The position numbers and the translations under genes are program-made. 64,000 nucleotides of DNA from Eutreptiella sp. 'Long Island Sound 2002' (taxonomy: Eukaryota > Euglenozoa > Euglenophyceae > Eutreptiales > Eutreptiaceae): positions 27,665,349 to 27,729,348 of the forward strand of contig OZ038399.1 of assembly GCA_964036045.1 (NCBI GenBank), given 5' to 3'. This document shows positions 31,295 through 64,000 of this stretch, piece by piece. The notes under the pieces are model-generated. The model was not told where the DNA came from. It saw only the letters and a list, made by a program, of their open reading frames with translations, and did not search any database. Position 1 is the first letter of the stretch. Each line of letters begins with the position of its first letter.

Positions 31295-31319
31295 GAAGAA
31301 GGCGTCTTGCTCAGTTTTG

Positions 31320-31583
31320 TCATCTGAGTGGATAGAGCTGGGGAGCTCGGATAGTCCACACTAAGAGACTCCATCGGTAACAGGAACAGTTGGGGGCGTT
31401 GGTGTTAGTCACGACGTGTTCATCTCCTCCGGGTATAGTCTCAATAGCATCTTGAGGTCGTAGTCCATCCTTCAAGTCACCCAAGGTGAGTCCATCGCTT
31501 TCTCGTTGTATAGCCTGGACCAGAGTGGAGTCTGGGTCCTCCCAGGGGATGGAGGTAAGACCTCTGTCCACCACGCTGAGCAT
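31320..31583 (-). pseudogene. Family B Pol linker, right copy
   Basis: An 87-codon frame (MLSVVDRGLTSIPWEDPDST...) matching the left copy between protease and RT. No domain recognised. It is out of frame with both neighbours. Confidence 0.5.
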
Positions 31584-42305: not shown

Positions 42306-42421
42306 TTAACTCTGGGAAAAAAATCCGTAGCTGTGCAGCCCAACCCCAAACAGGTTGACACCAATGTAACAAATCCATACCACAACGAAGCCAGAGGCGC
42401 CCACCAAAGCAGATGTCTTAC
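42306..42421 (-). CDS. ccsA: ccsA last exon
   Basis: Acceptor ...TGCTCAG, then 116 nt: two bases complete a Gly codon and 37 codons follow ([18 protein letters not shown] and on to [11 protein letters not shown]), ending at TAA 42306-42308. It holds the last membrane segment and the conserved C-terminal His. Confidence 0.92.
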
Positions 42422-44210
42422 CTGAGCAGGAAAAACAGACGAAAATTGGGAATACGCCTAAGAGAATTAAGAGAATTAAGCCCCCCCACCATTTATGCCC
42501 TTTTCGCACGCCTTCCTACCTGGGGGAGGGGGTGGGGTCACTGGGAGGTGTGTGTGCACCGGGAGGGGGGGGGGGATTTTTCAGCAAACCCATACCTGGG
42601 CATGGGACCTGGGACCCCCACTGTTTGGGGGGCTGCTACAGAAGAAAACACTTGAATCATACATGTTGGGTGTTGATCGACACACAGTGGCCACAACAGG
42701 CCAACCGAGCATTGTCTACCATGGTGTGAAACAGCCCATGAGGGCCTGTTTGCGGGCTCATGGGCACCACCAGGGTCCAAACTGGTGCTCTTTGACCCCC
42801 AATGGGTCGATATGTGCTCCACTTGTCACCCGGAACAAGGATCCAAGCTTGGTCCAAGTCTAACAGCTTCCACGGGCTTCTTGGGTGTATAGGCAGCAGT
42901 TGCATCCGCAGCAGCAGCCATATTTGTAGGTGTGTGCTTAGGGGCATTCTAGCACAATCACAAGCAGACATGGAACAGCTTGAACAAACAATGAACCAGA
43001 AAAAAGATATTGTGATTATTTTTGATTATTCGTGACTTTGAAAATGGCCCAAATTCATGCGAATTCGTGATTAGTCATGATTATTCGTGCCACAAACCCA
43101 CGAAAATGTTGGTTATGGGTTTCACATAGAAGAAAACAGTTGAATAATACCTGGGTCTTGATCAACGCAGAGTGGCTGCAATAGGTGAACCAAACTGTGT
43201 TTGCCCCCAACCCCCATAAAAAAATTGTTTTCAGTTCCTTGAGGATTCCTCGCCGAAACCCCATTGTGTGATACTACTGTGCGACAAAATGAGGCTTTTT
43301 TTTACAAGCGGGGGTTGAAACCCAAATTTAACCTCCTGGGCCATGATATGTGACTACGCCCAAAAGGTGGGGGGGGGGGGGGATGTTGTATCCTTTCCAA
43401 TGTATGCAGGCCTGCTTGGTTTTGATCCAAGATGATTGGATTTTCACAGCGTGAGGCTGAAACAGAGGTCCTAGAAACAGACCCCAGCGTCATTTTTAAC
43501 ACTCGCAACCCCCCACCCTGGGGACACAAAAGGAGTGCAGGGGCTTTCTCAAACAGTAGCAATTTTGGGAGGTCCCAACGCTTTAGCCCTTGGTGCAGAA
43601 ACTGCCATACTTTCTATTGATCCAAGAGATGATTTAGGTGCTCTCACACAATTCAGCGCCAGCCCCATGTGGGCCCAACATGAGTGGATTGTGGCGGCAT
43701 AAATCCTATTGCCTGGGGGACATGTCCAGAGTGAAGGTTGATGGTGACATCTGACTGAAAAAACTCCTCTGCAAGGGTGCAGGTTTGGGGATCTGGAGAG
43801 GGTGGGGAGTCAACATTCCAGCCCCACATGGAAACCCCCCCCCCCCCCGTGGACACTGGGCTGCGTAGAGTCACGCTGCCTTTGCAAGCTCCAACTTGTA
43901 GTGCACCTTTGTCTTTGCACCGCAGGCTTGTTCGAGAGGTGTGCACTCACTAGCACACACACGCGCGCGCGCACACACACACGTGGTTATTGCATGTGTT
44001 TTTATTGCAGCCTGCGTAGGAGAGTACGAGTTGAATGTTGCAGTTCGTGCATGCTTGGAACCCTCGCAGGTATGCACGCACACCCACACACCCACACATG
44101 CACGCGCACCCACACCCATTTACTCACCCACCCCCACACGCGCACACACCCACACCCATGCATCAGCCCACCCACCCTTCAACCCATCCACCCACGCCCA
44201 CCCACCCACC

Positions 44211-44271
<61 letters not shown>

Positions 44272-46649
44272 GAGCAGGAGCAGGTGCGGTCCCCCGGTAG
44301 GGCGCACCTGCTCGCCAACCCCATGGTGCCTGCCGGCCCCCACCAACTAGGAGAAGCGGTCGTCGGTGGGGTGACCCTCACTGCGGGCCTACCCGGGCTC
44401 AGCATCATGGCTGTGGCTCTCCGATTTGTCTCCTCCCCATGGCCTCCTGACCCACGCAACACCCTGACCATGCTGCAGGTACCGCTCAGGCAGCCGAGGG
44501 GGGGGGGGGGGGAAGCAGGGAATCCGGCTCCACTTCCGGTCCGGCTGCCGACCCCCCCCAGGGAGTGGGTACACAGTCACACGGGTGCGAGCCCTTAGTG
44601 CCAGGTACTAGCAAAGGGAGGCGTTTGGCCGGCAGGTCACAGGCACCTGGCCCGTCGCCTGCTACCCCCCCCCCCCTTTACAGCCTCCATGTCCGCCGAC
44701 ATAGTGCCTGTACGCGGAACACAGGCACCCACACTCGGCGACGCCTACACGTGGTCCTATCCACCGGACGGCCACTCCTCTTGGGGATGATTCCTTGCGC
44801 TCCGGCTGGGGGAGCCTGGTCCCCTCTCCCTCGCCACCCCTGGTGGAGTGGCCCCTGGCCCTGGGCATAGGACCCCTGGCTATCGGGGTGCTCCCCAGGT
44901 TGCTACCCAAACCCGGGTTGCTATACCACCAAGCGGCTATCGGGGCGCCATCCCCCAGGTCAGAGGAGGGGCAGCCTCAGTCTGCAGCCCCCGCCCTGGG
45001 TGTGGGGCTGAATCTCAACGGCACCAGGCAGCACTGCCGCACTATCTCCAGGCATCAACCTGGCCTGCAGGTTGGGGCAGCACCGCTTGCAGTCGGTGGC
45101 GGCACTGCCTGCGCGCCCACCCTGCAACCGGCCATGTGGCTGCACGGTGCACAGAAAGGCAGCGGCCTCCTCCCATGCATGCAGAGGGGGCCGCCCCACC
45201 ATGAACCCGGGCCGGCCATCTTCCCAGCAGGTGGCTATCAGGGAGCCCCCCCAGCTCCACCCCGGAGACCGTCGCAACAGGCGGCCGGGGTCCCCACAAG
45301 TTGTGGAGGGGGCAAAAAACCAGCATCAAACCCCCGGACCCTGACCCCCCGGGGCATCCCTGTCCCCTCACGGCTTGCCCAAGACCTGTAACCTGCCGCT
45401 GTGGGGGAGGCCCCTGCACCTGGGCACCATGCCCACGGGGCCAGGCATGGCGCCACGTAAAGTCGCTGCAGCACTGCCTCTGCCCCCCCCCCCCCCCCCC
45501 GGCTCCGGGAGAGGGCCGCCCCACCACTCACCTACGCCAGCCACCATACCATCAGGTGGCTGTCGGGATGCCCCCCAGGTTGGGGAGGGGGCTGCCCCGC
45601 GTCTCCCGTGTCATCAACCAGCTGCCATACCGGTAGGCGGCCATCGGGTTCACAACCTCAACCCTGGGCACAGGGCCCCTGGACCCAGGCACCGCGCCCA
45701 AATCCGCCTCATCTGTGAACCCCCAGCTGCCATACCAACAGACGGCTATCAGGGTGCCCCCCAGGCTAAGGGGGCGGGAGGGGCGGGGGGGGGCACCGCC
45801 ACTGGCTGACCCTATCCCAGTATCCCCCACCATGAGGACTCAGGCCTCCTTCGGCGTTGGGCTGGAGCCGGGTGGAGGCTCCGGGATGCACCTGACCCTT
45901 GATGGGCCCCACGGTGGCCCCATGCCCCGTGTCGTTGGACCTAGGAAGGTCAGGGACACGGACACAAAGCACAAGATCGTGGAGAGAACAGGGCTGCAGA
46001 TAGCCCGGCACCCACTCACAAACCGCAACCCCCGTTGGAACCGTCCTGCCCCATCGTGGCTCCCCCATGGTGGGCGGCGGGGTGTGGGGCACGCGACGTC
46101 GCCCCCCCCCACCCCACATTTTGTGTTAGCCCAAGCCCCCCCCCCCCCCCCCCCCCCCCCCTCCCCGNNNNNNNNNNNNNNNNNNNNNNNNNNNNNNNNN
46201 NNNNNNNNNNNNNNNNNNNNNNNNNNNNNNNNNNNNNNNNNNNNNNNNNNNNNNNNNNNNNNNNNNNNNNNNNNNNNNNNNNNNNNNNNNNNNNNNNNNN
46301 NNNNNNNNNNNNNNNNNNNNNNNNNNNNNNNNNNNNNNNNNNNNNNNNNNNNNNNNNNNNNNNNNNNACACACACACACACGAACACACACACACACGCA
46401 CAGACACACACGAACACACACACACGAACACACACACACACGCACGCACGCACGCACACACACACACACACGAACACACACACACACACACACACACACG
46501 AACACACACACACACACACACACACGAACACACACACACACACACACACGAACACACACACACACACACACACACGAACACACACACACACACGCACGCA
46601 CGCACGCACACACGGACGCACACACGCACGCACGCACGCACGCATGCGG

Positions 46650-46686
<37 letters not shown>

Positions 46687-49600
46687 CATGCATGTAGGCA
46701 TGCACGCACGCCCGCCCGCCCGCACACAACGCCAGCCAAACCCGCCAAGCCAGACACGCCAAACACACTGAAGGACTACCAAAAGGCCGCAAAGCCAGAA
46801 CAGGGCAGGGGTTGATGAAATGGATATTTGGTAAGACTTGGTACTAGACGAGGTAAAACCTAGTAAAATGTGGCAAAACTTAGTAGAAGTGAGGTAAAAC
46901 GTAGTAAACAAATTTTGTGTTGAAAAACTTTTGAGTGAATTTTTTTTATTTTTACTGAGTAAAAATCGAAAAATTTTACTAAGTTTTACCATACCCCCCC
47001 CCCCCATTTTTACTCAAGAACTTGACACTTTGATGGTAGGTGGTACTTTTGTTTAAGGGCACAAAGCCACGGGTCGATCCCTGGCCACTTGTGGCGCCCC
47101 AGCAGGGCCAAATCATCACGCACACAACTAGTTGGCACTTGGCGAATATAACATAATATAATTGGGATTGGGCACCAGAAACAAAATTAGGCTCAAGAAA
47201 CAACATCAAAGCAGCGGCACTGGGAACAAAACTGGGTGTTATAAAAAAAGAGAACCCGGCAGGGCCACAACCAACATTAGTGCCAACTACTTACAAGTAG
47301 TTACAAAAGACACGAAGATCAATTGGGCCTTAGTATCCGTATCTTTTTCTATTAAATAAATTACTTGGTAAAAATCCACCTGCAGAGGAAAAACTTAATA
47401 ACAAAATGTTTTTTTCACTAAATTTTGAAACTTAAGACAAAATTTTTTTCTAAAATTTTTTTCACAGAGTTTTATCACACACCCTAATGAAATAGTTGGC
47501 ATGCAAGGACACTGCCACAATGCCCACCAGGCTTCGTTTATAAGAGGGGGGGGGGGTATTTTGGACAAGACCCACCCACCCAACTTTGGACCCACCCACC
47601 CAACTTTTGACCCACCCAGACCCCCCCCCCTCTTATAATTCTGTGGGGAGCATTTTTTGTGAACCAAATTGAAGCCAAGGCGCTCCCGGGTTAGGCATCC
47701 CCAAAGGGTGACACACCAAAAACTTCACAACACCAGGGTTTGAACTAGGGATCTTTGGAATTGCAGTTACGTTCCTTGACAACTGGGCTACCAACCAGCT
47801 CTGACAGCATTGTGCAACAAAGGGTCCACAGGTTTAACATGTTATCAAAAAAAAGTCCGCCATGTGAAAAATTGCCACCTGCACACCTGCCACCTGCACA
47901 ACGACACAACAGAAAGGGGCACCAGCAAACAGCCAGACAAGGCTCCTGTGACCAAAGAAAGAAGGTGTGGCAGGAGCCCAACCCAGAAAACCCTCAGAAT
48001 TATAAGAGGGGGGGGGGTCCAGAGCTTTAGACCCACCCACCCGGCTGAAGACCCACCCACCCAGACCCCCCCCCCCATTGCAAAATAGCTCTTATAAACG
48101 AAGCCTGATGCCCACCCGGACGCCTCGTGGCTGCGTTCGCAGTTGCTATCTTTTGTGTCCGCGCTGTTTTCGCCTGTTGGTGCCCCCATACCTGCCGCCA
48201 CAACCCAGTCCCGTCCACAATAAATTGTGCAGGAAGCGTCTATGGCTCTGGTCTGTACCACGATTGGAGTGTGTGAATGGGAAGGCAGAGCAGCCATGCA
48301 TCACCAAACCCTTTCAGGGCAAAGGACCAAGCTCATTCAAAGGTCGTCATGCCATGGCTCCATCTCCAGTTCCACAAGCTGCAAAAATGGGGCAGCAACT
48401 TGTCCCCAGGGATTTGGAGCCGAGGGCTCTTTGGGAGGCTGACACCCCGACCCTGCGCCTGAACAGGGGGCTGCACACCTCTCCAGCCCTTGTTCAGGCG
48501 TGTGTGCAGATAGAAGGAGTAGACCAACCACGTGATCAGTGCCCACGTTTCTTTAGGGTCCCAGCTCCAGTAAGAACCCCATGCCTCATTGGCCCATACA
48601 GCCCCTAAATACAACAGGGACCATGACAACCATTGGCAGTTGGGGTCCGGGAGGAACAAGCAACCCCCAATACCCCCCCTGAAGCTAGCCCCTGGTCCGC
48701 CGCCCCCCTCAGAGTTTTCCTTAAGAGGGGGGGTCCAAGGGGGGTGGGTGCGACCCCCCGCAGGAGACCCTGAGTTGTTAGAGGCGCCGAAGGTGCTGAA
48801 GAAATTTTTTGGCCTAAACTGACTTGCGCCGAAGGCGCCAGAGAAAATTTTTCATTGGCTGAAGACCCGGAGAAAATTTTGCCTAATCACCCCCCCCCCC
48901 CCCCGGGGGGTGATTAGGACCCTCAGGGTCCAAGAGGGGTGGGTGGGTGGTGTCACCCCCTCCCCCCCTCCAAGGAGATGCTGAGTTGTTGAGCAAAACT
49001 CTGCGCCCCCCTCCACAGCTCATCGCAAAGCATTGCCTTGGCCCACTGCCGGGCCTTGGTAGGACAGGCACCCACCACACAGTACTGCCTAGGCCCCACA
49101 GCAGGCCTTGATGGGAGAAACACCCACTATGCACTCTCTATCCTGAGCCGTACACGCTCTTTGGGGTGTTGCTTGGGGGGGGGGGGTTGCCGGGGGGCAT
49201 GCCAGCCACTACTACCACAAGCATACCTCAGGGCTATGTGGGGTTATGGGGGTATGTATGCAATAGTAGTGCTGAGAAGAACGTCTTAAGGGTGGCCGTA
49301 CCCCCCCCCGCACCCGATAAATTGTAAAAGAAAAATTCCTAAAGGGTAAGGGTTCAGATGCAGAAAATGGATGAAAAAATTCTATTGCCTTCGGGAGTGC
49401 ACCTCGAAGAGATGCTGACAGTCAGCCAATCAGTCAGTTAGCCAGGCCAGCAGTCAGTCAGACAGAAACACACAGTTTGTGTTTTTTGTCAGTGGCAGGC
49501 TCCAAGCAGTAGGGAGGACCGGTGTGCTCACGGCAAGCAGTGGCCGAATGGTAATGCAGCCGACCGCAGACTTTTTGGTCGGTGGTTTGAATCCCGGTCG

Positions 49601-52600
49601 GGCGAACATGGCGGGGCGTTGCCGCCGACGACAGTCGACCAACCAGGATTCGAACCGCCGACCGAAAACTCTGCAGTCAGCTGCGTTACCATTTGAGCGT
49701 GGTTTGATGTGACAGCGATGTGCCTTTCCACTGCTTGGAGCCTTCTGAGCGAAAACTTTTGACCCCCCCCCCCTCAAAAAAATGATATCCAGTTTTAAGG
49801 GATAGAGGCCTCAGAATCAAAAAATCCATTGGGGGGTTGTCTTATTGGGCAAAATAATGATTTTACAAGGGGTTGGACATCAAATATAATGCCTTGGGGT
49901 ATGTTACGCGAATGACCCCCCAAAAGGGGGGTATACGACGCCCACACCTGCGCTTGATCTAACAACCTCTCTTCGAGGTGATTCCTGAAGAATGAAAAAC
50001 TGCTGCAGAATTAGATTCAGCTGTCCAAAGGAAATTCCTGAAGGTTGGATTTGGATGTTGAAAATGGTGAGATGTTGAATGTAAAAATTCTGAGGTTAAC
50101 ATGTACTTTGGTGATGGACCTCTGCTTTGAGGTCCTTGAAATGTTCGCCTGGGTTTTGAAAGATAGCAGTCCCAGGGCTGGCGTTCCATTGCAACTCTGG
50201 GGGGCGGGGCCCTCCAAGCCTGACGGGGGGAGGGGGGGGGGGGTCGCATACAAGGACTGGGCCCGGCCAGCCCCCCCCCCCGGGGGGGGGGGGGTTAGTA
50301 GACAAGCTGTGGGCATAGCCAATGAGTTATTGTGTCCATGCCACCACACAATGTCCGTTTGGCTTTGTGGGGATAGATAACAGGCTATCCTCTGTCCCGT
50401 CGAGCCACCAAATGATCACCTGTAGAATGGCACACCAAACTCACAAAGATATGCTCTTGGCGGCATGCATAGTATAAGGCAATGTGCAAGCAGGCATCCC
50501 GGTGGGCGTTTACATGATACGGGCACGTCAAACAGGATACAGAGTGTCTACTCGGCAGCGGTTTGTTGCATGTCTGCTTGTGTGGACAGGAGAGATGGTG
50601 CCCCCGTATGCAGCAGCGCATGCGTGCCTGCATGCATGCGGGGGAAGGGGGGGGGGGGCGCAGAGCGTCGCACAGGGTGTTGCACTTGCTGCGGTATTGT
50701 GCCACCCTGGCCCAGCCGGGACCGCGGGCAACTGCCTCCTGCGGGAGGTGGGACCTGGCATTGACACCATGACACCATGACACCTTGTGGCCTGGTGATC
50801 AATAGCACCAGCTCCGAGCCATTCCACACCCCACAGTAACCCACCAAGAAACATAACAGCACACACAGCACCCCACTTGCCCGGCCGAGGGTCTTGACTA
50901 CAGCGCGAGCCCGTCCACACAAGGAGGGGTGTGCCCCGCCGGCTCTCCACATAGCCAACAGGGCGCACGAGGTAAAATACCAACAGGGTTGAGAAGGGAA
51001 GCACAAGAAAAATAACACACCCACAGAATTTACCCTGTGAATCACGCATTGTCGCCCACATCAAAGAGGAGTGCAAATAGCACAAATGAAGGTCCAACAA
51101 AGGACATGTGGCGGTGTGTCTGCCACATGCCTGCGGTATGCGCTTTGCCCATGGTGCAACCAGGCCTGATTAGGGTTAGAGCCTAATTACTGGCACGAAC
51201 CCTGGCTCCTGCAACTGTTTGCAGCTGGGAAGAGGATCCGGATGGGGATGGGGTGATGAATGGGATGCGGATGTTGTTTGGGAAGGCAACTATCTCAACC
51301 CCCCCCCCCCTTTTCTGCATCTGGGCCCAGCCCGGCACCCAAAGTGCGACGCAGCCCACGCCAAACTACTGGACCTGTAACCTCCTGCGGGAGCGGCTCG
51401 GCGCAGCATTGCATGTGGCCAGTGGTGGGAACGGCATTGCACTGCATGCACTGTTGATACAATCCACCCGGGATGCACCATTTCTTGGGCATTTCTTGGG
51501 CTTCCCAACCACCCAATCACCCCTTGAAAAAGAGGAGTGGGGAAGCGGGGGCCGGTGGGGGAAAGAGGGAAAGGGGTCTGGGGGCCCCCTGTCCCTCTGC
51601 TTCACAGCCGTGTTGAAGAAGTACTGCCCCCGGCTACGTTCCCCGTACACCAGCACTTCCAGACCTGAAATGATGCCAATCGTCAGCAGCGGAAAGCCAA
51701 GTACGAGGGTGCGGTAGCTCAGGTCATCCAACGTGTCGGCCAACGAGCGCTTTGTGGGATTGGGACCTTGGATCGCAGTTCCATCCAGGTTGAGGACCGC
51801 CGCCTGCCCCACCGCCTCCTCAATGTCATTGTCCAGGTTAACGCTCAGCACCATGCCATCACTGGGGGCGCTCGGGCTGGACTCGGTGGGAAGGGCAGAT
51901 GGGGCATCCTCGTCTTGATTGCGCGAAACAAACAAGTACGCTGCAGCAAGTGACAAAGGGTCGGATAAGGCGCAGCGTGGGGTTAAGGGTGGGATGGAAC
52001 ATCAGAGGCTAGCTGCTGGCGGCTGGAGTGGCTGACGGAGTGGAAGCCCACTGATAGGCAAATACCGTGCCTTGCAAAATGTCTGTCCTACCTGACACTC
52101 TCACAATGCAAAATGTCTGGCTGCCCCGCTCATGCACCCCGTCTCCCCACACACCCCATCCTACTTCACATACCTGGTCCCCCTCTACGAACCCCGTCTC
52201 CCACCCTGCCCCCCTCCACACAACGTCTGCCTCCACACACCCTGTCTCCCTCCGTACATCCAGCCAAGAGGGTATAGAATCGGGACATGATGTATGAACA
52301 GTAGGAGGCAAAATGTGGGAGAACAGTCCCCATGTGATACTCATTTCGTTTCTGGTCCGCGTTGCGTTTTGTTTTGGCCGTGGGTTTCACAAGCCTGTTT
52401 GACGATCCATGTTTCTCACCCCGTCTCGTGGAGTGCTGTGACTTCTTCCATGCGTTTTCCTGTGGGCTCAACCGTCGTTCTAGGATCATCCTCCCCTGCT
52501 GTGTTTTTTTTTTATCTGGCACACCCGTTGTCCAAGTATGCTCTCCAGACAGTCCCAGATCAGATGCGAAGGGGGACAGTGGATGAGGATCGCCCTGCGG

Positions 52601-55600
52601 GATAAACCTGGATCCCACTGACTACAGTGTCCAACAACTGCATATGCAATCATCACAGTGCCACATTTAACAACCACATGGATTGTCCCATAAATCATTG
52701 AGACTCTAAACTGTCTGTTCGCAGGTCTTCAGTGGCGACAGATCTGTTGGGAGAAAATCTGTGGGTCCCACTTGAAACGAGCTGTCTGAGGGGTGCAGCA
52801 GGGCCATGTGGGGGCACACACCCATGGACATCACGGATCCGGCCAACAGGATGGAGTAGCTCAGCATCATCACAGAGACGTGCATCATCAGCCAGTTCGA
52901 CTTTAGGGCAGGAACAAGCGCAGACGCCCTTTGAAGCTCCGGGGGCAGGATAAGCGTAGCAAAGGCGTTGATGAAGAGCACCTGGACGGACGGGAGATGG
53001 GGTGCGGTGATTCGCATACAGTCATCAACACGAGGAAGGAGGCCACGTGAAATAATGTGTATGATGTAGAGGGAGAGAGAGGGTTTGTGCAGGGGGACAG
53101 GGTGAGCTCACCGGAATAAACCGTACCTGGGGTTCGGCGTACCTATCGGCTCGGCGTACTTATCGGCTCGGCGTACTTTCGGCCGGCCGATCGGCCGGCC
53201 GAAAGTACGCCTGTGGCTGTGCCTGTGGCCCCTTTAATAACATGACTCCTGCGGTGGCCACAGACCGCCTTTTGTGTGTTCCGCCTTGTGTGTGCACCGC
53301 TTTGCCTGTGGCCCCTTTAATAACATGACTCCTGCGGTGGCCACAGACCGCCTTTTGTGTGTTCCGCCTTGTGTGTGCACCGCCTTCTGTGTGTACCGCC
53401 TTGCCAGTGGCCCCTTTAATAACATGACTCCTGCGGTGGCCCGCCTTTTGTGTGTTCCGCCTTGTGTGCGCACCGCCTTTTGTGTGTACCGCCTTGCCTG
53501 TGGCCCCTTTAATAACATGACTCCTGCGGTGGCCCGCCTTTTGTGTGTTCCGCCTTGTGTGTGCACCGCTTTGCCTGTGGCCCCTTTAATAACATGACTC
53601 CTGCGGTGGCCACAGACCGCCTTTTGTGTGTTCCGCCTTGTGTATGCACCGCCTTCTGTGTGTACCGCCTTGCCAGTGGCCCCTTTAATAACATGACTCC
53701 TGCGGTGGCCCGCCTTTTGTGTGTTCCGCCTTGTGTGCGCACCGCCTTTTGTGTGTACCGCCTTGCCTGTGGCCCCTTTAATAACATGACTCCTGCGATG
53801 GCCACAGACCGCCTTTTGTGTGTTCCGCCTTGTGTGTGCACCGCTTTGCCTGTGGCCCCTTTAATAACATGACTCCTGCGGTGGCCACAGACCGCCTTTT
53901 GTGTGTTCCGCCTTGTGTGTGCACCGCCTTCTGTGTGTACCGCCTTGCCAGTGGCCCCTTTAATAACATGACTCCTGCGGTGGCCCACCTTTTGTGTGTT
54001 CCGCCTTGTGTGCGCACCGCCTTTTGTGTGTACCGCCTTGCCTGTGGCCCCTTTAATAACATGACTCCTGCGGTGGCCACAGACCGCCTTTTGTGTGTTC
54101 CGCCTTGTGTGTGCACCGCTTTGCCTGTGGCCCCTTTAATAACATGACTCCTGCGGTGGCCACAGACCGCCTTTTGTGTGTTCCGCCTTGTGTATGCACC
54201 GCCTTCTGTGTGTACCGCCTTGCCAGTGGCCCCTTTAATAACATGACTCCTGCGGTGGCCCACCTTTTGTGTGTTCCGCCTTGTGTGCGCACCGCCTTTT
54301 GTGTGTACCGCCTTGCCTGTGGCCCCTTTAATAACATGACTCCTGCGGTGGCCACAGACCGCCTTTTGTGTGTTCCGCCTTGTGTGTGCACCGCCTTCTG
54401 TGTGTACCGCCTTGCCTGTGGCCCCTTTAATAACATGACTCCTGCGGTGGCCACAAACCGCCTTTTGTGTGTTCCGCCTTGTGTGTGCACCGCCTTCTGT
54501 GTGTACCACCTTGCTTGTGGCCCCTTTAATAACATGACTCCTGCGGTGGCCACGGACCGCCTTTTGTGTGTACCGCCTTGTCTCTGCACCGCCTTCTGTG
54601 TGTACCGCCTTGCCTGTGGCCCCTTTAATAACATGACTCCTGCGGTGGCCACAAACCGCCTTTTGTGTGTTCCGCCTTGTGTGTGCACCGCCTTCTGTGT
54701 GTACCGCCTTGCCTGTGGCCCTAGTACAAGGGGGGGTGACGGATTAAACCGTACCTTCGGCCGGCCGATCGGCGGGCCGAAGGTACGGCCGGACTTTCGG
54801 CCGGCCGATCGAAAGTACGCCGAGCCGATAAGTACGCCGAGCCGATAGGTACGCCGAACCCAGGTACGGTTAAATCTGGCGGGCCGACAGGGTGTGTGCA
54901 GGGGGACAGGGTGTATGGAGGGGGACAGGGTGTGTGCAGGGGGACAGGGTGTATGGAGGGGGACAGGGTGTGTGCAGGGGGACAGGGTGTGTGCAGGGGG
55001 ACAGGGTGTGTGGAGGGGGACAGGGTGTATGGAGGGGGACAGGGTGTGTGGAGGGGGACAGGGTGTGTGCAGGGGGACAGGGTATGTGGAGGGGGACATG
55101 GTGTATGGAGGGGGACAGGGTGTGTGCAGGGGGACAGGGTGTGTGCAGGGGGACAGGGTGTGTGCAGGGGGACAGGGTGTGTGGAGGGGGACAGGGTGTG
55201 TGCAGGGGGACAGGGTGTGTGCAGGGGGACAGGGTGTGTGCAGGGGGACAGGGTGTGTGCAGGGGGACAGGGTGTGTGCAGGGGGACAGGGTGTGTGGAG
55301 GGGGACAGGGTGTGTGCAGGGGGACAGGGTGTGTGCAGGGGGACAGGGTGTGTGCAGGGGGACAGGGTGTGTGCAGGGGGACAGGGTGTGTGCAGGGGGA
55401 CAGGGTGTGTGGAGGGGGACAGGGTGTGTGCAGGGGGACAGGGTGTGTGCAGGGGGACAGGGTGTGTGGAGGGGGACAGGGTGTATGGAGGGGGACAGGG
55501 TGTGTGCAGGAGGACAGGGTGTATGGAGGGGGACAGGGTGTGTGCAGGGGGGACAGGGTGTGTGCAGGGGGACAGGGTGTATGGAGGGGGACAGGGTGTG

Positions 55601-58600
55601 TGCAGGGGGACAGGGTGTGTGGAGGGGGACAGGGTGTGTGGAGGGGGACAGGCTGTATGGAGGGGGACAGGGTGTATGGAGGGGGACAGGGTGTGTGGAG
55701 GGGGACAGGGTGTATGGAGGGGGACAGGGTGTGTGGAGGGGGACAGGGTGTGTGGAGGGGGACAGGGTGTGTGGAGGGGGACAGGGTGTGTGCAGGAGGA
55801 CAGGGTGTATGGAGGGGGACAGGGTGTGTGCAGGGGGGACAGGGTGTGTGCAGGGGGACAGGGTGTATGGAGGGGGACAGGGTGTGTGCAGGGGGACAGG
55901 GTGTGTGGAGGGGGACAGGGTGTGTGGAGGGGGACAGGCTGTATGGAGGGGGACAGGGTGTATGGAGGGGGACAGGGTGTGTGGAGGGGGACAGGGTGTG
56001 TGGAGGAGGACAGGGTGTGTGCAGGGGGACAGGGTGTGTGCAGGGGGACAGGGTGTGTGCAGGGGGACAGGGTGTGTGCAGGGGGACAGGGTGTGTGCAG
56101 GGGGACAGGGTGTGTGCAGGGGGACAGGGTGTGTGGAGGGGGAGAGGGTGTGTGCAGGGGGACAGGGTGTGTGCAGGGGGACAGGGTGTGTGCAGGGGGA
56201 CAGGGTATGTGGAGGGGGACAGGGTGTATGCAGGGGGACAGGGTGTGTGCAGGGGGACAGGGTGTGTGCAGGGGGACAGGGTGTGTGCAGGGGGACAGGG
56301 TGTGTGCAGGGGGACAGGGTGTGTGCAGGCGGACAGGGTGTGTGCAGGGGGACAGGGTGTGTGGAGGGGACAGGGTGTGTGGAGGGGGAGAGGGTGTGTG
56401 CAGGGGGACAGGGTGTGTGCAGGGGGACAGGGTGTGTGCAGCGGGACAGGGTATGTGGAGGGGGACAGGGTGTATGCAGGGGGACAGGGTGTGTGCAGGG
56501 GGACAGGGTGTGTGGAGGGGGACAGGGTGTGTGGAGGGGGACAGGGTGTGTGGAGGGGGACAGGGTGTGTGGAGGGGGACAGGGTGTGTGCAGGAGGACA
56601 GGGTGTATGGAGGGGGACAGGGTGTGTGCAGGGGGGACAGGGTGTGTGCAGGGGGACAGGGTGTATGGAGGGGGACAGGGTGTGTGCAGCAGGACAGGGT
56701 GTGTGGAGGGGGACAGGGTGTGTGGAGGGGGACAGGCTGTATGGAAGGGGACAGGGTGTATGGAGGGGGACAGGGTGTGTGGAGGGGGACAGGGTGTGTG
56801 GAGGGGGACAGGGTGTGTGCAGGGGGACAGGGTGTGTGCAGGGGGACAGGGTGTGTGGAGGGGGACAGGGTGTGTGGAGGGGGACAGGGTGTGTGCAGGG
56901 GGACAGGGTGTGTGCAGGGGGACAGGGTGTGTGGAGGGGGACAGGGTGTGTGCAGGGGGACAGGGTGTGTGCAGGGGGACAGGGTGTGTGCAGGGGGACA
57001 GGGTGTGTGCAGGGGGACAGGGTGTGTGCAGGGGGACAGGGTATGTGGAGGGGGACAGGGTGTATGGAGGGGGACAGGGTGTGTGCAGGGGGGACAGGGT
57101 GTGTGCAGGGGGACAGGGTGTATGGAGGGGGACAGGGTGTGTGCAGGGGGACAGGGTGTGTGGAGGGGGACAGGGTGTGTGGAGGGGGACAGGCTGTATG
57201 GAGGGGGACAGGGTTTATGGAGGGGGACAGGGTGTGTGGAGGGGGACAGGGTGTGTGGAGGGGGACAGGGTGTGTGCAGGGGGACAGGGTGTGTGTAGGG
57301 GGACAGGGTGTGTGGAGGGGGACAGGGTGTGTGCAGGGGGACAGGGTGTGTGCAGGGGGACAGGGTGTGTGCAGGGGGACAGGGTGTGTGGAGGGGGAGA
57401 GGGTGTGTGCAGGGGGACAGGGTGTGTGCAGGGGGACAGGGTGTGTGCAGGGGGACAGGGTATGTGGAGGGGGACAGGGTGTATGCAGGGGGACAGGGTG
57501 TGTGCAGGGGGACAGGGTGTGTGCAGGGGGACAGGGTGTATGGAGGGGGACAGGGTGTGTGCAGGGGGACAGGGTGTGTGCAGGGGGACAGGGTGTATGG
57601 AGGGGGACAGGGTGTGTGCAGGGGGACAGGGTGTGTGCAGGGGGACAGGGTGTGTGCAGGGGGACAGGGTGTGTGCAGGGGGACAGGGTGTGTGCAGGGG
57701 GACAGGGTGTGTGCAGGGGGACAGGGTGTGTGGAGGGGGACAGGGTGTGTGGAGGGGGACAGGGTGTATGGAGGGGGACAGGGTGTATGGAGGGGGACAG
57801 GGTGTGTGGAGGGGGACAGGGTGTGTGCAGGGGGACAGGGTGTGTGCAGGGGGACAGGGTGTGTGCAGGGGGACAGGGTGTGTGGAGGGGGACAGGGTGT
57901 ATGGAGGGGGACAGGGTGTGTGCAGGGGGACAGGGTGTGTGCAGGGGGACAGGGTGTATGGAGGGGGACAGGGTGTGTGCAGGGGGACAGGGTGTGTGCA
58001 GGGGGACAGGGTGTATGGAGGGGGACAGGGTGTGTGGAGGGGGACAGGGTGTGTGCAGGGGGACAGGGTGTGTGCAGGGGGACAGGGTATGTGGAGGGGG
58101 ACAGGGTGTATGCAGGGGGACAGGGTGTGTGCAGGGGGACAGGGTGTGTGCAGGGGGACAGGGTGTATGGAGGGGGACAGGGTGTGTGCAGGGGGACAGG
58201 GTGTGTGCAGGGGGACAGGGTGTATGGAGGGGGACAGGGTGTGTGCAGGGGGACAGGGTGTGTGCAGGGGGACAGGGTGTGTGCAGGGGGACAGGGTGTG
58301 TGCAGGGGGACAGGGTGTGTGCAGGGGGACAGGGTGTGTGCAGGGGGACAGGGTGTGTGGAGGGGGACAGGGTGTATGGAGGGGGACAGGGTGTGTGCAG
58401 GGGGACAGGGTGTGTGGAGGGGGACAGGGTGTATGGAGGGGGACAGGGTGTATGGAGGGGGACAGGGTGTGTGGAGGGGGACAGGGTGTATGGAGGGGGA
58501 CAGGGTGTGTGCAGGGGGACAGGGTATGTGGAGGGGGACAGGGTGTATGGAGGGGGACAGGGTGTGTGCAGGGGGACAGGGTGTGTGCAGGGGGACAGGG

Positions 58601-61600
58601 TGTGTGCAGGGGGACAGGGTGTGTGGAGGGGGACAGGGTGTGTGCAGGGGGACAGGGTGTGTGCAGGGGGACAGGGTATGTGGAGGGGGACAGGGTGTAT
58701 GCAGGGGGACAGGGTGTGTGCAGGGGGACAGGGTGTGTGGAGGGGGACAGGGTGTATGGAGGGGGACAGGGTGTGTGCAGGGGGACAGGGTGTGTGCAGG
58801 GGGACAGGGTGTATGGAGGGGGACAGGGTGTGTGCAGGGGGACAGGGTGTGTGCAGGGGGACAGGGTGTGTGCAGGGGGACAGGGTGTGTGCAGGGGGAC
58901 AGGGTGTGTGGAGGGGGACAGGGTGTGTGCAGGGGGACAGGGTGTATGGAGGGGGACAGGGTGTATGGAGGGGGACAGGGTGTGTGGAGGGGGACAGGGT
59001 GTGTGCAGGGGGACAGGGTGTGTGGAGGGGGACAGGGTGTGTGCAGGGGGACAGGGTGTGTGGAGGGGGACAGGGTGTATGGAGGGGGACAGGGTGTATG
59101 GAGGGGGACAGGGTGTGTGGAGGGGGACAGGGTGTATGGAGGGGGACAGGGTGTGTGGAGGGGGAGAGGGTGTGTGCAGGGGGACAGGGTGTGTGCAGGG
59201 GGACAGGGTATGTGGAGGGGGACAGGGTGTATGGAGGGGGACAGGGTGTGTGCAGGGGGACAGGGTGTGTGCAGGGGGACAGGGTGTATGGAGGGGGACA
59301 GGGTGTGTGCAGGGGGACAGGGTGTGTGCAGGGGGACAGGGTGTATGGAGGGGGACAGGGTGTGTGCAGGGGGACAGGGTGTGTGCAGGGGGACAGGGTG
59401 TGTGCAGGGGGACAGGGTGTGTGCAGGGGGACAGGGTGTGTGGAGGGGGACAGGGTGTATGGAGGGGGACAGGGTGTATGGAGGGGGACAGGGTGTGTGG
59501 AGGGGGACAGGGTGTATGGAGGGGGACAGGGTGTGTGGAGGGGGACAGGGTGTGTGCAGGGGGACAGGGTGTGTGCAGGGGGACAGGGTATGTGGAGGGG
59601 GACAGGGTGTATGGAGGGGGACAGGGTGTGTGCAGGGGGACAGGGTGTGTGCAGGGGGACAGGGTGTATGGAGGGGGACAGGGTGTGTGCAGGGGGACAG
59701 GGTGTGTGCAGGGGGACAGGGTGTATGGAGGGGGACAGGGTGTGTGGAGGGGGACAGGGTGTGTGCAGGGGGACAGGGTGTGTGGAGGGGGACAGGGTGT
59801 GTGCAGGGGGACAGGGTGTATGGAGGGGGACAGGGTGTGTGCAGGGGGACAGGGTGTATGGAGGGGGACAGGGTGTATGGAGGGGGACAGGGTGTGTGCA
59901 GGGGGACAGGGTGTGTGCAGGGGGACAGGGTGTATGGAGGGGGACAGGGTGTGTGCAGGGGGACAGGGTGTGTGCAGGGGGACAGGGTGTGTGCAGGGGG
60001 ACAGGGTGTGTGGAGGGGGACAGGGTGTGTGGAGGGGGACAGGGTGTGTGCAGGGGGACAGGGTGTGTGGAGGGGGACAGGGTGTGTGGAGGGGGACAGG
60101 GTGTATGGAGGGGGACAGGGTGTATGGAGGGGGACAGGGTGTTTGGAGGGGGACAGGGTGTATGGAGGGGGACAGGGTGTGTGCAGGGGGACAGGGTGTG
60201 TGCAGGGGGACAGGTTGTGTGCAGGGGGACAGGGTATGTGGAGGGGGACAGGGTGTATGGAGGGGGACAGGGTGTGTGCAGGGGGACAGGGTGTGTGCAG
60301 GGGGACAGGGTGTATGGAGGGGGACAGGGTGTGTGCAGGGGGACAGGGTGTGTGCAGGGGGACAGGGTGTATGGAGGGGGACAGGGTGTGTGCAGGGGGA
60401 CAGGGTGTGTGCAGGGGGACAGGGTGTGTGCAGGGGGACAGGGTGTGTGCAGGGGGACAGGGTGTGTGGAGGGGGACAGGGTGTGTGGAGGGGGACAGGG
60501 TGTGTGGAGGGGGACAGGGTGTATGGAGGGGGACAGGGTGTATGGAGGGGGACAGGGTATGTGGAGGGGGACAGGCCGTGTGGAGGGGGACGTGGCGTGT
60601 AAAGTGGTGAGAGCAGAGCAATGCATTGTGCAGACCACTTGGCAGGGGCAGCGGGGCACACCAGCGGTGCAAAGATCGCTCCCGTGCTGATGCCGTATGC
60701 AACTTGGCGCTCAAGAACCAAAGGGACAGTGCTGACCCCCCACGACAAGAACATCAGCGACTCGTACAAATTGCTCAGTGGAAAATGGCCTGAGGCAGCA
60801 GCAGTGCACAGAAACGTGGCTGCTGCAAGCAGCAGTACGGGGACAGAGTGGCCTGAGGCCGCGTGGCACAGGGCGCTATCTGAATGTGCGGATGCGATGC
60901 GCTCTGTTTGCAATAATTCACAGGCGGACCAACTCCGGGGGGGAGGGCACTCCAGGCCTGTTTCCAAACAATCCCCCCGCCTTCGTAGGCTCTCTGGGCT
61001 GGGCCCACCAAAATGACCCCACACACCCCCAATCCACATTCCACACATTTGACAGATCATACCTCAAATGGGTACCTTCCCCCCCCCCCCCTTGCAATCC
61101 CCCCCCCAAATGTCGGGCCGGTTCCCCCCCATGGGAGGGGGGACGGTCACCAAATGACGGTCCCCCCCCTGGATTGGGGGGGGGGGGGGATTGCACCACA
61201 AAACTGTACCCTAGTATCACAGTGTAAATCAGCTTTGGCGCCTTGTAAAATTTGTCTTTGGCACCTAGTATTTCCTATGCTTTTTGGGCCAAGTGACTGT
61301 TCCCCCCCAGGGGGGGGGGGGATTACAAGGGGGTAAGGTAGTGCCCCTCGTTGGGGACAGGCACTACACCCACTGGTTCGAACCACCTACCCTACTTGGG
61401 GGAGGGCACTGCCTGTTTCCGATGCACTCCAACAAAAAATTTTCTGTGAGCCCCATGCAGTTGCCCTCATCCAAACCTTGCGGGAAGACATCATTATGGG
61501 AAACTTGAAAGCTTGGCCCTTCGAGCCTAGTTGCTACACCCCCCACCCCTTTATTTGGACAGGCTTGGAGGGCCCCCTCCCCCAGGGTTGCAATGGACCA

Positions 61601-63782
61601 GGGGCACAGAGGGGGGCGACTCGGGGATGGTGGGTCCAAACAGATGGACCGCAAAATGATCGCCACATCGCACTGGTGGCTATATGAAGCCTGCGAGAAA
61701 TTGGCTTCAACGCTGGCAAACACATAAGGGTATCTGGTGCCTTCGGCGCGCACGGTCATGTTAGGCCCAAGCCCCCCCTTCATTCAACCTGCATGCCCCC
61801 CCCCCCCCCAGTCGCACACCGTGATCTGCAGCTGATGGCAATGGAGGACCCAACCGGCTATGCACCAGCCGCTTGGAGAAATCCCAGCAAGCAGAGAGCG
61901 ACCCCCCACCCCTGAATGTTGTATGTGATTGACCTTAACCGCACCTGAACCCACTTTTTTCAACGTAAGGCCCCAGCAAAGCCCGCGGCTGCCCTTGGCC
62001 TCCACATGTGGCCGAAGGCCAGAGAGGGACGTGCGGGGGATTCGTGGACCAACACTGAGGAGCCCCCGTGCAGTGTTTGCTCTCCGTGAATGTGGTAGGA
62101 GAGGGACAGCTCCCTTGCCTCTGGGCCGGGAATGACCTGGAGTCTAGCTGTCCGATGCGCCTGGCGGCCAGGAGGGGGTCAGGGCCCCCCCTCTCCCCCT
62201 TGTGGTTGGTCTAAGACCTCCAACGCAGCTACAGAACCTGCTGTCGAACAAGGGATTGGGGATGGTCAGGGCTAATGTCCCGGCCTCAGACCCGTGTGCC
62301 CCCACCCCTCGATCCGGCCCTCCCTCCTCGCTCCCAAACCCTTCGTCTGCCCTCTCAAACCCCCTCCCAAGTGCAGACTGTCCCACGCCCAAAGAGGAGT
62401 GGTCCCTGGTTGAGGGAGTAGGGGCTGAGGAGGGAGGACAGGGCTTTTGGGGAGCCCAGGGAGGGGGGAGGGCAGGGATGAAGGGGCTTCGAAAAACGCC
62501 ACCAAATCGTAACCGGTGGTTGGGACAGCGGTTGGGAGACAAGGCTGAGGAAAGCGCAGCTCGATTGTGGAAATCAGCGTAACTCGCTTTTTTATTTTTG
62601 TTTTTGGCGTAAGCCGCGCAACTTTTTTTTTGGGGCGTAAATCGCATTTTTTTTTGATGGAAATTTATTTCTTTTTTGGGGCAAGTCGCATATGGAAAAA
62701 AACACCGTTTTTTTCTTGACACGACAAGGCCCACCAGTCACGACATGGGCGTTGAGGGCGGGATGGTTGGGGCGGAACAAACCGTCACCCCGGAGGGAGA
62801 GGTACCCCTCCGCACCTTCAAGCGCATGCCTGTGAGGGGAGTCTGGGCGCAGGCCTCCACTGTTGCCCCTGGTGCCTCTGAAGCTCTGTCCTCATTCCCC
62901 ACCAGCTTCTCCTCACCAGCCCCGGGCCTCTCCACTCGTCTCCCGAGCCGCCCATGCCTCTCAAGACTCTTCTTCCCCTCTCGGTTGGCGCAGGGTCCCC
63001 TTGCCAAATCACCGACTGGTCCGGGACATGGGAGTGGGGAGGGGGGGAGGTTCAGTACAGCTCTCAACGCCCACACCTGCCGTGTGATGCGGCAGGGTCC
63101 AGAGTGGGGGGCAGGGAAAATGGGGGGGGAGTTGGCACAAGGCCTCAGTATCTGATTGTTTGCCTTTGGCAGCGCCTATTGGCCTCTCGCCACTGCTCAC
63201 CCCGACCCTCTGTGGGCCCAAACGTGTTTTGGTTGTGTCAACGCAGCCCCCGGATGTCTTGTCCTGTTTGACTACTCCGGGGGTCGGCCGTCCCAGAGAC
63301 GGGCCGTTGCCCGTGCCGTTGCCCGTGGCGGGCGGGGGCGGAGGCAAAATGTTTTCCGCTTTTTTTTTGGCAAAGTCGAATTCCCCGTTCAATTCCGAGC
63401 ATTTTTTGACTGCACATAAGTGGGGCTAAAAATTGTTGACGCCTCCCCACAACTGAAAAAAAAAAAACAACAGAAAAATCCCAGCAGACACAACTATATA
63501 CTCCAAAGCACCTGACGAGCTGTCAGGCCATTGTCAGCCCCGCTCTGTACGCAGAAGAATTGCTGCTGCCAAGTGGTGTAGGTTTGGGGGGGCTGGGGGG
63601 GGGGGGGGGCAAATTAAGGGCCGGTCCCCACGTCAACGCCCCCGCGTGGTGCGGACTCAGCCCCAACCCAGACCTCACCCATTGTGGCCGTGTGCGATGT
63701 GGATGGCACAGACCGATGTATGCCCAGCGGAATGAAAGCAATGCGGCCATCAGCAGATTGGACGACACCATCCCGGCGTAGC
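42306..63782 (-). CDS. ccsA: CcsA, cytochrome c-type biogenesis (heme handling) protein, nuclear split gene, 5' end outside window
   Basis: Six exons join 63782-63714, 60789-60662, 52981-52822, 51940-51665, 48604-48479 and 42421-42306. All five introns are GT-AG and every junction restores the reading frame and the CcsA alignment. About 290 residues are covered. Conserved blocks in order are [32 protein letters not shown], a membrane segment to [42 protein letters not shown], the tryptophan-rich [18 protein letters not shown], then [18 protein letters not shown]. In System II cytochrome c maturation CcsA works with Ccs1 in the thylakoid membrane to move and attach heme; the WWD motif and the His in MMHVS and GLHSYG are the heme-handling signatures. 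The first membrane segment and any transit peptide must lie to the right of the window. CcsA is normally plastid-encoded, so this copy implies gene transfer to the nucleus. Confidence 0.93.
43952..44276. repeat. Compound microsatellite (CA, CCCA and GA runs)
   Basis: Alternating (CA)n and CG, then CCCA/CCCACA-type repeats, then about 15 CA units followed by about 15 GA units ending near 44271. The Thr/His/Pro-rich frames here are repeat translations. Confidence 0.95.
44277..46167. other. GC-rich intronic block with degenerate repeats
   Basis: Long GC-rich stretch with open frames on both strands but no conserved domain. A motif close to CATACCANCAGGCGGCTATC followed by GGGTGCCCCCCAGG recurs imperfectly near 44880, 44925, 45225, 45545, 45620 and 45725. 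Several poly-C tracts, the longest just before the N gap. Confidence 0.55.
46168..46367. other. Assembly gap (200 N)
   Basis: Exactly 200 Ns between a poly-C tract and a CA repeat. The round number suggests a placeholder, so the true length is unknown. Confidence 0.99.
46368..46697. repeat. (CA)n microsatellite with interspersed GA and CG variants
   Basis: About 330 bp of CA dinucleotides interrupted by ACGAACAC and GCACGCACG variants, starting directly after the gap. Cys/Val- or Thr/His-rich frames over it are not genes. Confidence 0.97.
47520..47528. repeat. 9 bp target site duplication, left (ATGCCCACC)
   Basis: ATGCCCACC precedes the MITE here and follows it at 48107-48115. Confidence 0.85.
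47529..48106. mobile_element. MITE with 18 bp terminal inverted repeats, Mutator-like
   Basis: Terminal inverted repeats AGGCTTCGTTTATAAGAG at 47529-47546 and its complement at 48088-48105. The 578 bp element is flanked by the 9 bp direct duplication ATGCCCACC, the length typical of Mutator-like elements. Each end holds a block with GACCCACCCACCC words between poly-G and poly-C runs (47541-47642 and 47996-48087), so the ends form an extended imperfect inverted repeat. The core has a minus-strand tRNA-like sequence at about 47730-47805 (GGTTGGTAGCCCAGT..., B box AGTTCAAACCC). No transposase frame. Confidence 0.88.
48107..48115. repeat. 9 bp target site duplication, right (ATGCCCACC)
   Basis: Right copy of the duplication flanking the MITE; one G at 48106 separates it from the inverted repeat. 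Confidence 0.85.
48479..48604 (-). CDS. ccsA: ccsA exon with the WWD motif
   Basis: Acceptor TATTTAG, 126 nt, donor AGAG|GTGTGC. Reads (G)[20 protein letters not shown], then a membrane segment to [12 protein letters not shown]. This tryptophan-rich block is the signature of heme handling proteins and is the most conserved part of CcsA. Confidence 0.96.
48605..51664 (-). other. ccsA intron 4 (3.06 kb, phase 1)
   Basis: Donor TCAG|GTCTGG, acceptor TTTAG. It contains one family C element, several poly-C/poly-G palindromes (48890-48912, 50270-50292) and no recognised gene. Confidence 0.85.
49376..49983 (+). mobile_element. tRNA-pair inverted-repeat element (family C), copy 4
   Basis: Best-preserved copy. 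Inverted CACCTCGAAGAGATG (49400-49414) and CACCTCGAAGAGAGG (complement at 49966-49980) bound it, with shared outer sequence ATTCTATTGCCTTCGG on the left. Inside, a plus-strand tRNA-like module at about 49534-49606 (A box TGGCCGAATGG, B box GGTTTGAATCC) faces a minus-strand module at about 49629-49700 (AAATGGTAACGCAGC, B box GGTTCGAATCC). The two modules are about 80% alike, so they form a foldback with tRNA-like arms. No target duplication was clear. Confidence 0.82.
51665..51940 (-). CDS. ccsA: ccsA exon with variable loop and membrane segment
   Basis: Acceptor GCTGCAG, 276 nt, donor TCAG|GTCTGG. After YLFVSRNQ comes a long acidic, Ser/Pro-rich loop (about 50 residues, no membrane character), then [20 protein letters not shown] and LLTIGIIS. 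The loop position matches the poorly conserved stroma- or lumen-side loop of CcsA; the LSYRT block is conserved. Confidence 0.93.
51941..52821 (-). other. ccsA intron 3 (0.88 kb, phase 1)
   Basis: Donor ATGG|GTGTGTG, acceptor GCTGCAG. No features recognised in it. Confidence 0.85.
52822..52981 (-). CDS. ccsA: ccsA exon with conserved histidine
   Basis: Acceptor CCGTCCAG, 160 nt, donor ATGG|GTGTG. Reads [20 protein letters not shown], then [20 protein letters not shown] and [13 protein letters not shown]. The MHVS histidine and the SNW-LM-MHV block are invariant features of CcsA. Phase 0 at its start, phase 1 at its end. Confidence 0.95.
53105..54885. mobile_element. Terminal-inverted-repeat element carrying a minisatellite (1,781 bp)
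   Basis: About 80 bp inverted repeats, including TTCGGCGTACCTATCGGCTC and TCGGCGTACTTATCGGCTCG, lie at 53105-53195 and in inverse at 54795-54885. They enclose the 275 bp higher-order array. The element interrupts the 19 bp minisatellite. GACAGGGTG stands on both sides (53096-53104 and 54886-54894), and removing the element with one copy restores an uninterrupted repeat unit. A 9 bp duplication fits Mutator-like transposition. No transposase. Confidence 0.8.
53206..54722. repeat. Minisatellite with 275 bp higher-order unit
   Basis: Basic units of 82-100 bp contain CCCTTTAATAACATGACTCC and GACCGCCTTTTGTGTGTTCC. Groups of three form a higher-order repeat whose start recurs at about 53274, 53543, 53818 and 54093 (269-275 bp). 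The last units are more divergent. The array fills the inverted-repeat element. Confidence 0.94.
54886..60600. repeat. 19 bp minisatellite, about 300 copies (5.7 kb)
   Basis: The unit is GGTGTGTGCAGGGGGACAG with two main variable sites (GTGTG or GTATG; GCAGG or GGAGG), giving three common variants in irregular order. Rare variants mark local duplications, for example a unit with an extra G (GCAGGGGGGACAG at about 55545, 55830, 56630 and 57085) and GGCTGTATGG. One more unit at 53079-53104 lies left of the inserted element. Since 19 leaves remainder one on division by three, all three frames of a strand translate to the same peptide, and long stop-free frames of up to about 2,000 codons arise on both strands without coding meaning. 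Confidence 0.98.
60662..60789 (-). CDS. ccsA: ccsA exon with [11 protein letters not shown]
   Basis: Acceptor CTGCCTCAG, 128 nt, donor CTG|GTGTGC. Reads (G)[16 protein letters not shown], then [20 protein letters not shown] and AIFAPL. The [11 protein letters not shown] block is nearly invariant in CcsA. An alternative acceptor lies at about 60831 (CTTGCAG), but using 60790 joins to the upstream exon at exactly the family spacing (RWAYI-G-HFPL). Confidence 0.95.
60790..63713 (-). other. ccsA intron 1 (2.92 kb, phase 1)
   Basis: Donor ATCG|GTCTGTG, acceptor CCTCAG. It contains poly-C/poly-G inverted tracts at 61080-61325, a T-rich stretch at 62580-62715, and no gene I can support. Confidence 0.75.
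63714..63782 (-). CDS. ccsA: ccsA exon, most upstream seen
   Basis: Acceptor TTGCACAG, 69 nt, donor ATCG|GTCTG. Reads [20 protein letters not shown] then YI, matching the second membrane segment of CcsA that leads directly into the [12 protein letters not shown] block. It starts with two bases of a split codon, so at least one more exon lies upstream. Confidence 0.85.
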
Positions 63783-64000
63783 CTGTGCAACAGAAGGCAG
63801 GGGACCAGGGGAGAAGAAGAGAACAATGCCTGCGTCTCCGTTGGCGGTCAGAATATCAAGACATCTTTGACTGGGTGGATGTGGGGACCGCGAGGAGGTC
63901 AGGGCGCTTCCTAATTCAGGAAAAAAAACGGAACGCGGGCGACCGACCCCACACTCCGCCGAATCCAGGTGGTCCGTCAGCCGTCCAGCGGACCGGTGGA
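63783..64000. other. Right edge, no exon recognised
   Basis: The N-terminal CcsA exons (first membrane segment, transit peptide) should lie on this side, but nothing in these 218 bases matches them. It is read as the 3' part of the next ccsA intron. Confidence 0.4.

Follow-up and report, generated by a model that had tools for sequence, protein, structure and literature searches.

We have identified a nuclear gene for the plastid-type heme-handling protein CcsA in a 64,000-nucleotide stretch of DNA, which as a whole is called the window here. Judged from its sequence, the locus is the functional nuclear ccsA of a photosynthetic euglenophyte other than Euglena gracilis, a reading to which we assign a probability of about 0.95. 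At least 13 exons extend across 33,490 bases of the minus strand (42306-75795 in window numbering, the far end lying outside the window); 1,461 of these bases are coding and 32,029 intronic. Their translation equals an intron-free protein, designated P0001, at 486 of 486 residues. A preliminary description of the window had called the gene nuclear, spliceosomal and plastid-type; the exon model, the identical intron-free protein, a predicted N-terminal presequence and the paraflagellar-rod exons carried by the same contig support that claim.

The fate of ccsA in euglenophytes has been treated before. The passages of Hrdá et al. 2012 (PMC3308993) that concern the gene place it among those missing from the plastids of Euglena and Eutreptiella, report a ccsA transcript in Euglena only, and propose transfer before the last common ancestor followed by loss in Eutreptiella. 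By this account a nuclear ccsA has been known in Euglena since 2012; the present locus confirms and extends that finding and introduces no new principle. Passages of a 2021 study (PMC8763093) treat ccsA as a gene that disappeared in each of the three secondary green endosymbioses. As far as these excerpts go, the print record on nuclear ccsA disagrees with itself, the 2012 transcript standing against an absence from the E. gracilis nucleus that is implied in 2021.

Exon-intron structure and the intron-free match

The preliminary description had proposed six minus-strand stretches of the window as ccsA exons, joined by five in-phase GT-AG junctions, and had put the gene at six or more exons, about 870 coding bases and 21.5 kb. 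Rebuilt from the sequence, the six exons join into a 290-residue CcsA without its N-terminus, with all five junctions GT-AG and in phase. The splice model and the identity with P0001 bore out both the exons and the junctions, although the extent proved larger than described. The same description had pointed to the right of the window for the first exons, and seven further exons were indeed found there, in 20 kb of adjoining sequence. Exons and introns are listed below in gene order, with window numbering continued past position 64000; all lie on the minus strand and all follow the 13-exon model.

65721-65871, 67545-67602, 67850-67972, 70069-70112, 72674-72740, 74521-74587 and 75720-75795, minus strand: exons 7 to 1, right of the window (loci L020 and L021)
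63783..64000, minus strand: 3' end of intron 7 in the window; the intron continues past the window to 65720
63714..63782, minus strand: exon 8 of 13 known; GT-AG borders, identical to P0001; no Pfam match alone
60790..63713, minus strand: intron 8, 2,924 bases, GT-AG
60662..60789, minus strand: exon 9; PF01578 at E 0.045 alone, splice model and P0001 identity
52982..60661, minus strand: intron 9, 7,680 bases, GT-AG, 94% tandem repeat by repeat analysis
52822..52981, minus strand: exon 10, with the conserved His295; PF01578 at E 3.2e-13, splice model and P0001 identity
51941..52821, minus strand: intron 10, 881 bases, GT-AG
51665..51940, minus strand: exon 11, with a variable acidic loop and then a 26-residue stretch; PF01578 at E 0.00036, splice model and P0001 identity
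48605..51664, minus strand: intron 11, 3,060 bases, GT-AG
48479..48604, minus strand: exon 12, with the WWD signature and His440; PF01578 at E 3.4e-19, splice model and P0001 identity
42422..48478, minus strand: intron 12, 6,057 bases, GT-AG, with a run of N near 46.2-46.4 kb
42306..42421, minus strand: exon 13, C-terminus with His478 and the stop TAA at 42306-42308; PF01578 at E 0.0017, splice model and P0001 identity

With these exact borders all 12 introns are GT-AG, and neither a frameshift nor a stop was found within the 1,461 coding bases. Junctions 10 and 11 were taken from the six-exon model and confirmed in the 13-exon translation. An open reading frame (ORF) at 50528-51169 was considered as a further ccsA exon and dropped, no family having matched it.

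P0001 was returned by a protein search with the 290-residue query, to which it is 100% identical over 100% of the query length. It is 486 residues long and its source is one 2,974-base JGI contig. Because all 13 exons together equal this protein at every residue, the exon set is not a product of chance. The JGI contig is read as complementary DNA (cDNA) because less than 3 kb cannot hold a 33.5-kb gene with its introns; through its identity to P0001, ccsA is apparently transcribed and spliced.

This first search admitted lengths up to 1.75 times 290 residues (about 507 residues), so that a longer euglenid CcsA could be hidden from it. Among the best 120 of 8,000 scored proteins, the closest labelled relative was EG_transcript_10248 (P0002, from EukProt), which we take from its label to be Euglena gracilis. 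It is 75% identical over the 290-residue query and 68% (280/411) in a longer alignment; the remaining proteins among those 120 are 53-58% identical to the query.

The predicted protein, its putative presequence and its partner

Assignment of the product to CcsA follows from both profiles and residues. The TIGR03144 equivalog model scores 334.2 bits against a cut-off of 187.6 and is covered from position 2 to 252 of 252. When the single-exon ORFs were searched separately, five of the six matched PF01578, of which only those at E 3.4e-19 and 3.2e-13 pass the Pfam cut-off; the exon at 63714-63782 had no Pfam match alone. The hallmarks of the family are given, in the passages of PMC5526843 that describe it, as a tryptophan-rich WWD motif and conserved histidines. 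Across 48 aligned rows, His295, His440 and His478 are invariant (48/48), as is the 11-residue WWD block, except for a nearly invariant Ser417. The protein is polytopic, with seven separate hydrophobic stretches between residues 163 and 477 by hydropathy. Three sequences of solved structures were matched. CcsBA (7s9y and 25vk) ranked first, aligning in the C-terminal part.

The same core, the WWD motif and the invariant histidines recur in CcsA encoded by plastids (e.g. Chlorokybus, P0069) and in the CcsB of cyanobacteria. In contrast to the euglenophyte protein, the rows compared lack an N-terminal extension, and the euglenophyte gene is nuclear and spliced. The nearest known system is the Euglena nuclear ccsA (P0002), which belongs to the same family, is 75% identical over the query as given above and likewise bears a long N-terminal extension. 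The present gene comes from another species, and its exons and introns could be mapped on a contig of chromosome scale. Extensions like those of the euglenophyte pair also occur in two further CcsA proteins, P0003 and P0117, which are 51% and 50% identical to P0001, respectively, and group with the pair in the CcsA tree.

Two hydrophobic stretches lie in the N-terminal extension, at residues 4-22 and 90-108, with 67 residues between them (simple hydropathy on a protein whose methionine and first residues are missing). In the relevant passages of PMC6242988, class I presequences have two transmembrane domains 60 ± 8 residues apart, and the spacing of 67 falls inside this range. The second stretch, rich in alanine, may instead be a lumen-targeting signal. 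The extension resembles a Euglena-like, double-hydrophobic presequence, and plastid targeting is predicted from it.

The usual partner of CcsA, Ccs1/ResB, is nuclear-encoded as well. The ResB profile has three matches, all within C2:106087097-106092786, where Ccs1-like frames are readable.

From these elements the following model may be proposed. Conventional spliceosomal (GT-AG) splicing would join 13 or more exons into the messenger RNA, and the N-terminal extension of about 155 residues, with its two hydrophobic stretches, would carry CcsA through the endoplasmic reticulum and Golgi to the three-membrane plastid. There, CcsA together with the nuclear-encoded Ccs1/ResB would pass heme through the thylakoid membrane for attachment to apocytochromes f and c6 (System II). 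Transfer of the gene to the nucleus would date from the time when the euglenophyte plastid arose, or from before it.

Host lineage and alternative readings

The assembly searched comprises 2.28 Gb in 2,205 contigs, and ccsA sits on a 38.9-Mb contig (C22) that it shares with paraflagellar-rod exons. The Flagellar_rod family (PF05149), which we assume to be typical of Euglenozoa, has 39 matches in the assembly, five of them on C22. On contigs C3 and C5 there are four full-length matches at 360-363 bits, three of them on C3, in open frames of 435-586 residues.

The assembly contains 54 PsaA/PsaB matches, 52 of them outside contig C394 (described below); stops interrupt 31 of these 52, as one would expect if plastid DNA had been inserted in the nucleus. 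A block of about 30% GC at C7:19401245-19408442 (loci L023 and L026) holds long psaA and psaB frames within a nuclear contig, and many older fragments lie elsewhere; block and fragments are read as plastid DNA inserted in the nucleus. In a psaB tree of 20 hand-picked rows with one nuclear-contig copy, that copy (L023) groups with Eutreptia, Euglena and Phacus (support 100/99), Eutreptia being nearest (91/91). By the approximately unbiased (AU) test, placement of this copy with Euglena and Phacus was not rejected (p 0.114), and a sister position to the psaB of C394 was rejected (p 0.001). Euglena gracilis was considered as the host and dropped, the ccsA protein being 75% identical to P0002 over the query and the nuclear-contig psaB copy 83% identical to E. 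gracilis psaB, a value to which divergence since insertion may contribute. Cladophorales, with their hairpin plastids, had been an earlier candidate on account of the green-type motif and the large genome, and were dropped once EG_transcript_10248 proved to be the closest labelled protein.

A profile search of the whole assembly with PF01578 gave five matches; C394 and the nuclear ccsA locus have two each, and C815 has one. C815 is likely a bacterial contaminant, being 29.8 kb long at 65% GC and having a 906-residue frame that matches PF01578 (E 9.7e-25). C394 is 105,135 bases long at 30% GC, with a 13.6-kb inverted repeat, an intact ccsA ORF and, among the ORFs listed, a red-lineage gene set; no match to the ResB profile was found on it, though ccsA is present. 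One check proposed in the preliminary description, that the plastid genome of the organism lacks ccsA, seemed at first to fail on this contig. Were C394 the plastid of the host, its intact ccsA would make the nuclear copy redundant or a relic. We consider this highly improbable. The C394 CcsA is 99% identical to a metagenome protein, and among its best 120 matches listed the two organism names given are Synura uvella (77%) and a truncated 'Oc...' entry (80%). The single nuclear-contig psaB copy tested groups with euglenophytes and not, by the AU test, as sister to its C394 counterpart, and the nuclear ccsA has 13 of 13 exons open, with GT-AG borders and an exact match to P0001. On its chrysophyte-like CcsA relatives, the psaB tree and the AU test, C394 was rejected as the host plastid; it is read as a chrysophyte-like plastid contig from a contaminant or a food organism. 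Harder still to credit is the idea that the locus is a pseudogene in decay or that its ORFs line up by chance. The introns are very large, one of them almost wholly tandem repeats, and retroelement ORFs lie to the left, as such a reading would have it, yet the 1,461 coding bases are free of frameshifts and stops, every one of the 12 introns has GT-AG borders, and the identity with an intron-free protein is 486/486.

A further alternative concerns the route of transfer. Euglenophytes may have taken ccsA from the nucleus of a prasinophyte-like alga, nucleus to nucleus, and not from a plastid genome. The two euglenophyte CcsA proteins split off together with the N-terminally extended P0003 (413 residues) and P0117 (430 residues), at support of 97/94, from Chlorokybus, chrysophytes and cyanobacteria, which would suit such a passage were P0003 and P0117 nuclear proteins of prasinophytes. 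The tree has 21 hand-picked rows and is midpoint-rooted, with internal branches near 3.9 and with Chlorokybus and P0104 flagged as long rows. It was built without a Pyramimonas plastid CcsA and therefore does not decide between plastid transfer and passage through an algal nucleus. On balance we regard the nucleus-to-nucleus route as unlikely. If it were true, a gene usually counted as a plastid transfer would have another history.

Several points weigh against reading the locus as a functional nuclear ccsA. The exon with the initiator methionine was not found in 28 kb upstream, and an upstream scan against residues 1-36 of P0002 gave a best score of 36, with 37 on the opposite strand. The 2,974-base JGI contig is taken for cDNA from its size. 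P0002 has a long N-terminal extension too, but its second hydrophobic stretch is weak (1.25). None of 14 control genomes matched PF05149; as far as named, these are bacteria and archaea, and this zero alone does not exclude other eukaryotes. The assembly yielded no contig that belongs to the plastid of the host, and the absence of ccsA from that plastid is for this reason taken from the literature. There, passages of a 2018 paper (PMC6207741) give ccsA as one of 57 plastid genes in the data set used, and passages of the 2021 study (PMC8763093) state that no genes beyond those they name were detected in the nucleus of E. gracilis, and ccsA is not one of the named genes.

Introns, neighbouring elements and implications

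The introns of ccsA are spliceosomal: all 12 are GT-AG, and none shows the pairing of nonconventional introns. In the passages of PMC4770533 on nonconventional euglenid introns, the intron ends pair at positions +4 to +6 with -8 to -6. By one simple pairing rule based on these positions, such pairing was found in 0 of the 12 ccsA introns, and intermediate or nonconventional introns were dropped as candidates. The donor sites read GTNTG (T at +4, G at +5) in 11 of 12 introns and GTGTG in 7 of 12, a departure from GTRAGT that may point to an unusual consensus at the 5' splice sites of this genome.

According to the preliminary description, the introns consist mainly of repeats and the gene is surrounded by retrotransposons. 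The first statement is borne out for intron 9 (52982-60661) only, where tandem arrays, chiefly of a 19-bp unit, cover 94%. Compared with 147 kb of other retrieved sequence, a very small part of the genome, the other eleven introns have matches over 0-20% of their length. Splicing apparently still spans intron 9 despite its minisatellite filling. The second statement stands for the left side of the gene, which is the side the scan covered. There, four of eight ORFs carry a reverse transcriptase, integrase or chromodomain above cut-off, and these ORFs are read from their domains as Ty3/Gypsy-like. The elements concerned are as follows.

54886..60591, no strand: 19-bp minisatellite in intron 9, unit GACAGGGTGTGTGCAGGGG, about 300 copies, starting 70 bases from the donor (tandem-repeat analysis)
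53220..54691, no strand: second tandem array in intron 9, 275-bp unit, 5.3 copies (tandem-repeat analysis)
2926-4536, 11546-13210, 13214-16759 and 29471-31360, minus strand: retroelement ORFs with a reverse transcriptase, integrase or chromodomain above cut-off (domain scan)

Relocation of a plastid gene to the nucleus has a parallel in the nuclear accD of Platycodon (PMC5553655). The ccsA product differs from that case in being a polytopic heme-handling protein, and the plastid is a secondary one.

The resolved nuclear gene, its putative presequence exons and the nuclear Ccs1 help to settle the disagreement in print for one euglenophyte. As a case of splicing, ccsA is a clean example over very long introns, one of them filled by a minisatellite. 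If the host does lie near Eutreptia, ccsA was not lost throughout the Eutreptiales, as had been proposed from Eutreptiella. The gene also suggests that a heme-handling protein with several membrane spans can be synthesised in the cytosol and still function in a complex plastid, as is predicted here.

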